From NCBI RefSeq assembly GCF_025854375.1, contig NZ_CP107575.1, positions 1-64,000 on the forward strand: a DNA stretch of 64,000 bases. The letters are read 5' to 3'. Below the pieces are notes generated by a model, which worked only from the letters and a program-made list of their open reading frames with translations, was not told the DNA's origin and did not search any database. The translations under genes were made by a program, and so were the position numbers. Positions 9,838 through 18,970 of the stretch are shown piece by piece (the first letter of the stretch is position 1; each line of letters opens with the position of its first letter). Source of the stretch: Glutamicibacter sp. JL.03c (GTDB lineage Bacteria > Actinomycetota > Actinomycetes > Actinomycetales > Micrococcaceae).

Positions 9838-10433
9838 GCACGCCCTCGACGCCACGCCCCAGCGGCAGTGCCCCGAAGAGCGAAGCGCCGCGACCTACCC
9901 AGGTAAAGCGTCCGGCATCAACTGGCACCGGTAGCCGCCCAGCCGCCGCAGGTGCCAAGCAGGCCGCCGGCCAGGCTCGTCCTGCAGGTTCCCGCCCGGC
10001 CGGCCAGCGGCCAACCGGCGCCCAGCGTCCGGCTAATGGCCAGGAGCGCCTGGTCCGCCCGGCTCCCAAGGCCAAGGTGCGCAAGGCCCGCTTGCTGGTT
10101 TCCAAGGTTGAGCCATTCTCTGTCTTGAAGCTGGCCTTCCTGCTGTCGGTAGCCTTCGGTGTGATCACCGTGGTCGCGGCCGTTGGCATCTGGGCCCTGC
10201 TGGACCTGATGGGTACGTTCGACGCATTCAACCAGCTGATCCAGGACGCGGTGGCTGAAGGCGGCTTCGACCTTCGCCAGAGCATGTCCCTTGGCCAGGT
10301 GGCTTCCTACGCGACGATCATCGCCGTGGTGAACGTCGTGGTCATTTCCGTCATCTCGATGCTGGGTGCGGTGCTGTACAACATTGCTGCTTCGCTGGTT
10401 GGCGGCGTCGGAGTGACCCTCACCGACGACTAG
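9834..10433 (+). CDS. DUF3566 domain membrane protein
   Basis: The 199-residue protein has a long Pro/Ala/Gly/Lys-rich disordered N-terminus (about 1-85), then the DUF3566 domain beginning near [21 protein letters not shown], with two membrane segments (about 97-122 and 158-190). DUF3566 genes lie just downstream of gyrA in many actinobacteria; the function is unknown. It overlaps gyrA by 4 bases and RBS GGAGGTAACGC precedes the ATG. It is probably translated from the gyrase message. Confidence 0.92.
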
Positions 10434-15343: not shown

Positions 15344-16198
15344 ATGTCCTACGGGCAGGTAAACCCACAGGGCCAAGCAACTCCGACATGCTATCGACAC
15401 CCACAGACGGTGTCCTATGTATCGTGTCATCGATGCGGGCGTCCGATCTGCCCTGAATGCCAGGTGTCCGCTCCGGTGGGTGTGCAATGCGTCGACTGCG
15501 TGGCCCAAGCCAATAGGGCTATCCCCCAGCAGAAGACCGAGTTTGGCGGCCGGCTTCGTGCCGGAGCACCGGTCATTACCTATGCGGTGATCGCACTCAA
15601 CGTCATGGTCTATGCCCTTCAGTGGATTATCCCTGGATTCACCAATTCCTTGGTCTTGGCCCCGGCTATCGCGGCCTATGAGCCGTGGAGGCTGATCACC
15701 AGCGCGTTTGCGCATTCCATGGGATCGTTCCTGCACCTGGCCATGAACATGTACGGCATTTATATCTTCGGCACCCTGCTAGAAACCAAGCTGGGCAGGC
15801 TGCGTTTTGCCTGGCTGTATTTGATCAGCGCGATCGGTGGTTCACTTGGCATCTTGCTCCTGAGTGCGCCGTTGAGCGCCACCCTCGGAGCATCAGGTGC
15901 CTTGGCTGGCCTGTTCTTGGCCACCTTTGTTGTCTACCGCTCCAACAAGCAGGCTCTACGCCAAATGGGCATCATTCTGGTGCTGAACATCGTCTTGGGC
16001 TTTGTGGTTTCCGGAATCTCATGGCAGGGCCATTTGGGTGGTGCCATTCTGGGCATTCTGGGCGCCTGCTGCATTGTGTTGATACCCAGAAGTAATCCAC
16101 AACGTGCCCGAACGCAGATCCTGCTTTTGGCTGCTCTTTCAGCGCTGCTTCTAGGAGCGGTTTATCTTGTCGCGCAGGCCGTGAAGTTCACTGGCTGA
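15344..16198 (+). CDS. Rhomboid family intramembrane serine protease
   Basis: Rhomboids cleave membrane-spanning substrates within the bilayer. The 284-residue protein has an N-terminal cysteine-rich zinc-binding-like region (Cys16, His19, Cys28, Cys31, Cys36, Cys39, Cys49, Cys52), then about six to seven membrane helices. The catalytic dyad is visible as Ser184 in LGASGALAG and His230 in SWQGHLGG. The HxxxN motif occurs in FLHLAMNMYGIYIFG. The zinc-finger-rhomboid layout is common in actinobacteria. Substrates are unknown. The gene is followed directly by a dense DnaA-box cluster. Confidence 0.93.
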   Translation: MSYGQVNPQGQATPTCYRHPQTVSYVSCHRCGRPICPECQVSAPVGVQCVDCVAQANRAIPQQKTEFGGRLRAGAPVITYAVIALNVMVYALQWIIPGFTNSLVLAPAIAAYEPWRLITSAFAHSMGSFLHLAMNMYGIYIFGTLLETKLGRLRFAWLYLISAIGGSLGILLLSAPLSATLGASGALAGLFLATFVVYRSNKQALRQMGIILVLNIVLGFVVSGISWQGHLGGAILGILGACCIVLIPRSNPQRARTQILLLAALSALLLGAVYLVAQAVKFTG

Positions 16199-16683
16199 CC
16201 GTTCGAAAACATCTCCACCGGTTATCCACACGGGATATCCACACTGTTAATAACTTACATCCGTGTAACTTGGTGGCACGTGGAGATATTAACAGGCGCC
16301 AATTCCCGTGATATCAAGGGTATTCCGGCCGTGTTACCCAATACTCACAACCTTGTCCCCAGTTGTGGATAACTTTTTAACAACCCCTGTAGATAGTGCA
16401 TATACGAACCGTCGGCTTGTTAATAACTTAAGGTTCGAAAGTTTAACCGATAGCACAGAACTCCGCTCAATAGGTGTGAATACAGCCTTTATCCACAGCC
16501 TGGATCCACAGTGTTAATAACTTACACGCATGTGATTCGCCCCTGGGAAATACTTATTGACTTGGCCATTCTGCGAAATTACCCGTACTTTGCAGTGAAT
16601 ATCCCCACCTGTGGATAAGTTTGTGAACAACTGTTTATAGAAATTATGCACACTGCATGTGGATAACGAGCTCTACCTGTGGA
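16199..16683. other. Gene-free DnaA-box cluster, origin-like or DnaA-titrating locus
   Basis: This 485-bp stretch between rhomboid and lysE has no credible gene. Exact DnaA boxes lie at 16222-16230, 16364-16372, 16489-16497, 16610-16618 and 16658-16666 (the first and third on plus, the others on minus). One-mismatch boxes are ATATCCACA 16235-16243, TTATGCACA 16644-16652 and TGTGGATTA 16678-16686; GGATCCACA 16502-16510 has two mismatches. TGTTAATAACTTA occurs exactly three times (16245-16257, 16418-16430, 16512-16524). The cluster is denser in exact boxes than the dnaA-dnaN gap. Function is inferred: extra origin module, datA-like sink or regulatory cluster. Confidence 0.85.
16245..16524 (+). 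repeat. Three copies of 13-mer TGTTAATAACTTA
   Basis: Identical 13-mers lie at 16245-16257, 16418-16430 and 16512-16524, interspersed with DnaA boxes. Each contains GTTAATAAC, an interrupted palindrome (GTTA-A-TAAC). The reverse complement GTTATTAAC also occurs in oriC at 1646-1654. They may bind a second origin factor or serve as AT-rich melting elements. Confidence 0.75.
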
Positions 16684-17301
16684 TTACTTCGTGAAAACTG
16701 GCCAAATCAGCAACACGGCAAAGAAGAGCATCATGAGCCCGATGATGAAGTCCAGAATCTGCCAGGCCTTAGGTCTCGCGAAGAGCGGAGCAAGGAATCG
16801 AGCGGCGTAGGCCAACGCGAAAAACCACAGGAAACTTGCGGCAATGGCTCCGACGGCAAACCAGCCCGCGCCAGCGCCCTGCGCAACGGCCACCGAGCCC
16901 AAGAGCAGTACCGTGTCGATATAGACGTGCGGGTTAAGCCAAGTGAGCGCCAGAGCGGTTCCGATCAGCGATAAAGCGGTCGTCGTCCGGGTGGTGCCCG
17001 AAACCTTCAGGGATTCAGGTTTAATCGCCCTTCGGAAAGCGAATATGGCGTAGGAGGCCAAAAACAGGAATCCGCCAACCCGTGCGACGATCAGCAGCCA
17101 AGGTACCTGCTCCACCAAGACGCCCATGCCGTTGACCCCAGCAAAGATCAGCACTGCATCTGACAGGCAGCACACGAGTGCGGTGATGAAAACATGTTCT
17201 TTTCTGATGCCCTGGCGCAGCACAAACGCATTTTGTGCGCCGATGGCCACGATCAGTGACAGTCCGGTGGTCAGTCCGAAGAAAAATGGTGCTGGGGTCA
17301 T
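16684..17301 (-). CDS. lysE: LysE family basic amino acid exporter
   Basis: The product exports L-lysine and/or L-arginine from the cytoplasm. The 205-residue protein has six hydrophobic segments and the LysE family N-terminal motif IGAQNAFVLRQG (about 21-32), with CCLSDAVLIFAGVNGMG following. It is divergent from a LysG/ArgP-type LysR regulator, the same arrangement as lysEG in corynebacteria, which supports lysine/arginine as substrate. Its stop codon overlaps the last near-match DnaA box of the cluster at 16678-16686. Confidence 0.92.
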   Translation of the reverse strand: MTPAPFFFGLTTGLSLIVAIGAQNAFVLRQGIRKEHVFITALVCCLSDAVLIFAGVNGMGVLVEQVPWLLIVARVGGFLFLASYAIFAFRRAIKPESLKVSGTTRTTTALSLIGTALALTWLNPHVYIDTVLLLGSVAVAQGAGAGWFAVGAIAASFLWFFALAYAARFLAPLFARPKAWQILDFIIGLMMLFFAVLLIWPVFTK

Positions 17302-18256: not shown

Positions 18257-18283
18257 GCATGTTGCAGGCCATGAATGCCTGAA

Positions 18284-18324
18284 CCCGGACGAGGGAGCCG
18301 TACCCGGAGAGCGACAAGACGGCC
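18284..18324 (+). promoter_or_regulatory. Guanidine-III (ykkC-III) riboswitch
   Basis: The segment contains CCGGACGAGG (18285-18294), then GCCGTACCCGG (18297-18307), then GACAAGACGGC (18313-18323), the conserved blocks of the guanidine-III class in the right order and spacing. The class fold is visible: CCGG (18285-18288) pairs with CCGG (18304-18307), and GCCGT (18297-18301) pairs with ACGGC (18319-18323) as a pseudoknot. It ends 17 bases before the ATG of a Gdx-type exporter, with RBS AGAAGGG right after the 3' strand. Guanidinium binding would be expected to expose the RBS. Confidence 0.9.
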
Positions 18325-18341
18325 AGAGAAGGGAATCTGGC

Positions 18342-18659
18342 ATGTATTGGGCCGTTCTGATTATTTCTGGTGTTTTCGAAGCCATCTGGGCTGTCGCTTT
18401 GGGCATGAGCGAAGGACTATCGAAGATTGTCCCGTCCATCGTCTTCGTTGCTGGCCTGATCGTTTCCATGGCGGGCCTGGCGTACGCGATGAAGGAAATC
18501 CCTGTGGGTACCGCCTACGCGATTTGGGTCGGAATCGGAGCCGCGCTCGCGGTGATTTACTCCATGGCCACCGGGCAGGAAGCCTTTTCGGTGCTGAAGA
18601 TGGTCTTCATCTTGGGACTGGTAGGCTGCGTCATTGGCCTGAAGGCCGTCAGCCACTAG
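18342..18659 (+). CDS. gdx: SMR family guanidinium exporter Gdx
   Basis: This 105-residue protein has four membrane helices, the small multidrug resistance layout. It carries the essential Glu13 in SGVFEAIWAVAL and the Gdx/SugE-type segments IVSMAGLAYAMKEIPVGTAYAIW and GLKAVSH, described here by position (about 42-63 and 99-105). The guanidine-III riboswitch directly upstream supports proton-coupled export of guanidinium rather than broad drug efflux. There is no second SMR gene alongside, so it probably works as an antiparallel homodimer. Confidence 0.93.
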   Translation: MYWAVLIISGVFEAIWAVALGMSEGLSKIVPSIVFVAGLIVSMAGLAYAMKEIPVGTAYAIWVGIGAALAVIYSMATGQEAFSVLKMVFILGLVGCVIGLKAVSH

Positions 18660-18712: not shown

Positions 18713-18970
18713 CTATTTCCAGCCTGTTGTCATGAAGAATCCGACCATTGCGATGCCGAATCCAATCACGATGTTCCAGCCGCCAATGTTGGGGATGGGG
18801 AACAGGGTCTGGGAAATGTAGTACACGATGATCCACAACAGGCCCAAGAGCATGAGGCCAAACATCACCGGCTTGTACCATCCGGGCATTGGCTTATCGA
18901 TAGCGTGGGCGCTTTGGCGCTCGGATCGGGCCTGTGTTGTGTTCTTGCGTCGTGGTTTTGACTCCGGCAC
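18713..18970 (-). CDS. crgA: Cell division protein CrgA
   Basis: CrgA is a small actinobacterial membrane protein that takes part in divisome and septal peptidoglycan assembly. The 85-residue protein has a basic N-terminus (about 1-25), the motif PMPGWYKPVMFGLMLLGLLW leading into helix 1, and a second helix WNIVIGFGIAMVGFFMTTGW at the C-terminus. The GTG start at 18970 has GAGGGAG about 9 bases upstream. Location upstream of trpG and the pknB operon matches mycobacteria. Confidence 0.95.
   Translation of the reverse strand: MPESKPRRKNTTQARSERQSAHAIDKPMPGWYKPVMFGLMLLGLLWIIVYYISQTLFPIPNIGGWNIVIGFGIAMVGFFMTTGWK

Follow-up and report, generated by a model that had tools for sequence, protein, structure and literature searches.

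A DnaA-box cluster near the origin of Glutamicibacter as the doubled form of a putative element conserved beside crgA

In Escherichia coli, the datA locus, where DnaA boxes outside oriC are accompanied by an IHF site, is described as repressing extra initiation, and a 2025 paper on the same organism argues for titration and for an enrichment of boxes near oriC (PMC12371093). A DnaA-box cluster near oriC of Streptomyces coelicolor is described as repressing untimely initiation, and the DnaA-box clusters of Bacillus subtilis (Okumura et al. 2012) are cited together with it in the same role (PMC4585315, PMC5742627). Here we describe a comparable locus in Glutamicibacter sp. JL.03c. The window (the whole stretch of DNA that was analyzed, 64 kb) lies at the start of the chromosome, a single contig of 3,586,856 bases. 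The rhomboid and lysE genes of the window are convergent, and the gap that lies 3' of both contains a cluster of five exact and three one-mismatch copies of the DnaA box TTATCCACA, spanning 16222-16686:

15344-16198, plus strand: rhomboid gene (PF01694), flanking the cluster
16199-16686, no strand: whole DnaA-box cluster (two modules and extra boxes) in the rhomboid-lysE gap
16222 (+), 16364 (-), 16489 (+), 16610 (-) and 16658 (-): exact TTATCCACA boxes
16235 (+), 16644 (+) and 16678 (-): one-mismatch boxes of the cluster
16684-17301, minus strand: lysE

The positions were recomputed, and the box counts given in a preliminary description of this DNA proved correct. The same description called the stretch gene-free, which holds for the rhomboid-lysE gap but not for the last box (16678-16686), which shares three bases with the 3' terminus of lysE. 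The dense cluster is confirmed as real. The window contains seven exact boxes where dinucleotide shuffles predict 0.17 (none of 100 shuffled sequences reached seven), and the whole 3.59-Mb chromosome holds 19, compared with 6 for the reversed control pattern; five of the 19 are in the cluster, two are in the dnaA-dnaN gap, two are at 3,538,332 and 3,538,592, and ten are scattered. When up to two mismatches to TTATCCACA or TTGTCCACA are allowed, the cluster contains 18 sites (mean of 2.66 and largest value of 8 in 200 base shuffles).

The cluster is built from two copies of an element of ~50 bp, each comprising three putative DnaA boxes and one palindrome in the order box, 4 bp, box, 1 bp, inverted box, 1 bp, palindrome. 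The two tandem boxes are 13 bp apart (start to start), the third box faces them across 1 bp, and a second facing pair is found some 60-85 bp past each palindrome (16353/16364 and 16599/16610). Scores in the following lines are those of R1, a sequence-only model of the element trained on 38 copies, including both from Glutamicibacter sp. JL.03c:

16222-16271, plus strand: element copy 1, with boxes at 16222-16230 (>), 16235-16243 (>) and 16245-16253 (<, TTATTAACA), then the palindrome; R1, 51.8 bits
16253-16270, no strand: palindrome of copy 1, matching AnTyACAnSSnTGTrAnT except for one or two outer letters
16353-16372, no strand: far arm of module 1, the facing pair TTGTCCCCA (16353, >) and TTATCCACA (16364, <)
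16418-16430, plus strand: third copy of TGTTAATAACTTA, without the tandem boxes
16489-16540, plus strand: element copy 2, with boxes at 16489-16497 (>), 16502-16510 (>, GGATCCACA) and 16512-16520 (<, TTATTAACA), then the palindrome; R1, 52.2 bits
16520-16537, no strand: palindrome of copy 2
16599-16618, no strand: far arm of module 2, the facing pair ATATCCCCA (16599, >) and TTATCCACA (16610, <)
16644-16686, no strand: extra boxes TTATGCACA (16644, >), TTATCCACA (16658, <) and TAATCCACA (16678, <)

Across the 38 aligned copies, mean mismatches at box positions +1, +14 and -24 are 0.5, 0.9 and 1.8, respectively, compared with 4-8 at most other offsets. The third box reads TTATTAACA in 21 of the 38 copies and TTGTCCACA in five, which argues that it is a degenerate box and not merely AT-rich sequence. 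The palindrome has the consensus AnTyACAnSSnTGTrAnT in 93 unique cores, with ACA and TGT preset by the search expression and the outer letters free. A reading of the palindrome as a hairpin or RNA was rejected: the wobble position shows no covariation (26 of the 93 unique cores have Watson-Crick pairs there, where 31.2 would be expected, and 19 have T-G or G-T, where 14.4 would be), and Rfam gave no match at the cluster at its gathering threshold. The absence of wobble covariation favors a protein site over a hairpin.

Within the genome of Glutamicibacter sp. JL.03c, the only two strong R1 matches (52.2 and 51.8 bits) are those in the cluster; the next best match scores 11.8 bits. R1 matches 147 of 149 genomes of the family and all 31 of its genera (E ≤ 0.001), and the two genomes that have no match belong to the same genus (g72). 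Forty loci from named relatives were compared; 38 of them carry one or more exact boxes at least 13.7 kb into the locus, near the homologous gap, and the remaining two (L027 and L034) are only 3.8 and 11.9 kb long and stop short of it. The two modules have an ordered layout. The alignment of the cluster comprised 35 sequences (L026, L027, L029, L031, L033 and L034 were left out). The boxes at 16364 and 16610 are kept in relatives, while counterparts of those at 16658 and 16678 are seen mainly in the closest ones. The pattern TTATCCACA-N95..125-TGTGGATAA occurs in 45 of 120 genomes of the family, and its reversed control in none; it thus detects less than R1. Loss of the boxes in relatives had been named beforehand as an outcome that would speak against the cluster; the comparison gave no such refutation, the cluster being kept. 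Two genomes of the family carry copies of the element on two contigs each (C9 and C11 in G119, C14 and C3 in G214), which suggests a second locus.

A separate, third DnaA-box cluster lies ~48 kb to the left of dnaA (G000, 3,538,257-3,538,756; L048:11401-11900). Two of its boxes are exact and several more are near matches, and R1 gives no strong match there; similar DNA is present in 10 of 12 other genomes of the genus and in none of six genomes of other families.

Beyond the family, R1 matches 139 of 196 genomes of the class, in 67 of 82 genera (E ≤ 0.01), a count not wholly independent of the training set; with the stricter filters of this search, the other 57 of the 196 gave no match at E ≤ 0.01. 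The position of these matches relative to crgA was compared for the 79 listed R1 best matches of genomes that were also searched for this gene, one of which has no crgA, leaving 78. Among these listed best matches, 67 of 78 are within 3 kb of the 3' end of crgA, at a median distance of 58 bp, and 11 are away from it (3 on another contig and 8 farther off). Seven of the 67 genomes had supplied training sequences to R1 (two in the family and five outside it). Near-crgA matches above 28 bits share one orientation in 28 of 29 cases; of those at or below 28 bits, 29 of 38 have the opposite orientation, and many match the box part of R1 only, so that the palindrome is not supported there. In Glutamicibacter sp. 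JL.03c, the lysE, lysG and SMR genes separate the cluster from crgA:

18716-18967, minus strand: crgA (PF06781 match)

A guanidine-III riboswitch (RF01763, 47.9 bits) is located at 18261-18327, just upstream of the SMR gene (18342-18659).

A hidden Markov model (HMM) seeded with 28 family copies only, and hence independent of the five outside-family contributors to R1, matches ten loci from other families (cutoff E ≤ 0.1; E = 3e-8 to 0.09; L078, L076, L069, L077, L072, L075, L066, L070, L067 and L080). In nine of the ten, all but L072, the match falls within the gap on the 3' side of crgA. We also counted exact TTRTCCACA boxes in 39 class genomes outside the family, 20 of which had been chosen mainly for lacking a near R1 match or for membership of family f19. 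At least one such box lies within 500 bp 3' of crgA in 29 of the 39 and none in 10; this interval holds 56 boxes (2.92 per kb), whereas the remainder of these loci holds 6 (0.015 per kb). Of the loci L061-L080, each of 16-20 kb, 14 of 20 also include dnaA, dnaN, recF, gyrB or gyrA.

At the level of the phylum, R1 matches 21 of 119 genomes (E ≤ 0.001), including 13 from other classes. Twelve of these 13 loci were inspected: crgA adjoins the match in one, sortase, pabA and/or pknB lie within ~1 kb in four, six have none of the query genes, and one (L115, family f47, of another class) was rejected as an element, being a box array upstream of dnaA. The array at that locus consists of four boxes (>><<), and its dnaA-dnaN gap holds 15 exact TTRTCCACA boxes (L115:7992-10715). 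Two genomes of family f44, which is also outside the class, have a pair of box-like sites with a palindrome on either side (L104:8001-8080 and L107:4900-4990), and none of the tested crgA-neighborhood genes is present in either stretch. As judged from these comparisons of sequence, the Glutamicibacter cluster is the doubled form of a putative element that is kept next to crgA across the class and, in part, in the wider phylum.

The cluster is 15 kb from the dnaA-dnaN gap and hence not beside dnaA or dnaN:

1438-1907, no strand: canonical dnaA-dnaN gap, probable oriC, with two exact boxes (1456-, 1625+) and an AT-rich tract near 1640-1700

The earlier statement that this gap has only two exact boxes is right as a count, but the gap is less bare than it implied, with 10 sites at up to two mismatches to TTATCCACA or TTGTCCACA (mean of 2.21 and largest value of 9 in 200 base shuffles). 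Ordered conserved boxes and an AT-rich tract are present in 34 aligned sequences, comprising the window and 33 of 40 relatives (L026, L027, L029, L031, L033, L034 and L036 were left out and nine sequences were trimmed). R1 gives no match to the dnaA-dnaN gap in its own genome up to E = 10, and the best dnaA-dnaN match noted for the family HMM in relatives' loci is 13.5 bits (L015). A Kocuria genome paper places its putative oriC between dnaA and dnaN (PMC12500396), and we likewise keep oriC of Glutamicibacter at dnaA-dnaN as its probable site.

Cumulative skew, calculated from -200 to +264 kb, has its GC and RY minima at 16608 and 16609, within the cluster, and its MK minimum at 10074, in neither gap. 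The place of the skew switch had been suggested as a check, but gene orientation confounds it: a run of mainly plus-strand genes up to rhomboid is followed by many minus-strand genes, which can give a skew minimum there wherever the origin is. At fourfold sites of 311 genes predicted by a simple ORF rule, coding-strand skew is -0.149 (plus genes) and -0.176 (minus genes) in the right replichore and -0.149 and -0.134, respectively, in the left. It is negative on both strands, with a difference of only 0.015-0.027 between leading and lagging genes. Plus genes between the two candidate origins have a pooled skew of -0.201 (per-gene mean -0.176, SEM 0.056, nine genes). Since the effect of orientation exceeds the leading-lagging difference, skew cannot place the origin within 15 kb, and the minimum at 16608 was rejected as a sign of the true origin.

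That the cluster is nonetheless the real or an alternative replication origin of the family, with dnaA-dnaN secondary, appears improbable to us. Its exact boxes outnumber those of dnaA-dnaN, its two modules are ordered, the GC and RY minima coincide with it, and within the family it is nearly as AT-rich as dnaA-dnaN (mean best 40-bp AT content of 0.67 vs 0.69 in 38 genomes; dnaA-dnaN higher in 21 and equal in 9). Gene orientation can, however, yield such minima, the MK minimum lies elsewhere, dnaA-dnaN retains its own conserved boxes and AT-rich tract, and dnaN, recF, gyrB and gyrA would all be head-on to replication from the cluster. Outside the family (L062-L080), the best 40-bp AT content in the 500 bp 3' of crgA is only 0.38-0.65; as four dnaA-dnaN gaps there give an overlapping 0.475-0.625, AT content is a weak argument against an origin. 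The proposal in the preliminary description that the cluster is the true initiation site is therefore not supported, and its bipartite origin finds no positive support for parts 15 kb apart. A helper role, in which the cluster would loop to dnaA-dnaN and aid orisome assembly there, is rather unlikely. Both sets of boxes are kept in relatives and bipartite origins are known, but those described flank a spacer gene and span no more than about 2000 bp (PMC4285127), compared with ~15 kb and many genes here.

Ordinary regulation, in which DnaA would control transcription of lysE, rhomboid or crgA, is highly improbable. DnaA is a known transcription factor and genes flank the cluster, but the gap is downstream of both of them, which argues against a promoter role; in addition, lysE is not the adjoining gene in many relatives, and most of the class genomes compared have the element on the 3' side of crgA. 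Regulation of the flanking genes was rejected on the position of the cluster 3' of rhomboid and lysE. A DARS-like site, which would promote ADP release and so reactivate DnaA, is unlikely, though less readily dismissed. A review describes a head-to-head pair plus box III as essential for DARS (PMC10380432). Read in reverse, the element has the order > < <, which is that of the three-box groups in two E. coli stretches. We take these stretches to be the DARS1 and DARS2 loci. Start-to-start spacing is 10 and 13 bp in the element, however, whereas each E. coli group has 14 and 12 bp; the second of these groups was chosen among overlapping ones for spacing equal to the first. A single close facing pair is present in the datA stretch of E. 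coli as well, so facing boxes alone are no mark of DARS.

We lean toward the cluster being a dedicated control site outside oriC, acting by titration of DnaA or by a switch of its nucleotide state. The preliminary description put forward three readings, of which a titrating element like datA or the Streptomyces cluster is the best fit, with DnaA binding and function being what we infer. DnaA would bind the boxes of the element cooperatively, a partner protein would bind the palindrome, and the complex of DnaA with the element would sequester DnaA or alter its ATP/ADP state. A site so near oriC would be duplicated soon after initiation, doubling its capacity and damping re-initiation; such early duplication suits titration. 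Titration or inactivation, as at datA, is the more likely direction than reactivation, as at DARS, although nothing in the sequence tells titration, inactivation and reactivation apart. A broader proposal, which we put forward tentatively as a fair possibility short of an expectation, is that the element is an ancient initiator-control element of the Actinomycetota, in which a three-box DnaA platform and a palindrome for a dedicated protein, placed beside crgA near the origin, would form a counterpart of datA and DARS.

Restraint of re-initiation in actinobacteria is poorly known. A defined 50-bp element with a near-constant place in most of the class, and present in other classes too, would offer a small experimental target; its palindrome points to a protein partner, and the element would make the Streptomyces observation a testable general mechanism. 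It also advises caution, in that such clusters, or a skew minimum beside them, are not to be read as origins. Clusters of DnaA boxes outside oriC are known. In the literature searched, the three-box-plus-palindrome element, its place at crgA and its spread appear to be new; the search, which covered few subscription papers, found no paper on DnaA boxes beside crgA.

The Glutamicibacter cluster resembles that of Streptomyces in having several boxes outside oriC yet close to it, with dnaA-dnaN taken as oriC. The S. coelicolor cluster is reportedly that of Smulczyk-Krawczyszyn et al. 2006, J Bacteriol 188:6184, and is said to have been found on cosmid H69 together with crgA. In all eight genomes compared from family f19, which we presume to be Streptomyces-like, the first 350 bp or so on the 3' side of crgA hold three or four exact TTRTCCACA boxes, and a ninth (L071) has three exact boxes 3' of the gene. 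Unlike the Glutamicibacter element, the f19 gap is not recognized by R1, and the two listed f19 best matches (G016 and G096) are more than 100 kb from crgA. The element may be the same locus as the 2006 cluster. Like datA, it combines boxes outside oriC with a candidate site for a second protein, here the palindrome; unlike datA, which lies by tRNA-Gly genes and uses IHF, the cluster is 15 kb from oriC, by rhomboid and crgA, and has a palindrome of its own. With DARS1 and DARS2 it shares three close boxes, of which I and II are head-to-head and III is in tandem behind II, and it differs from them in spacing (10/13 vs 14/12 bp) and in locus. Having the DARS order with another spacing, and a facing pair of the kind also present in datA, the element is filed as neither DARS nor datA.
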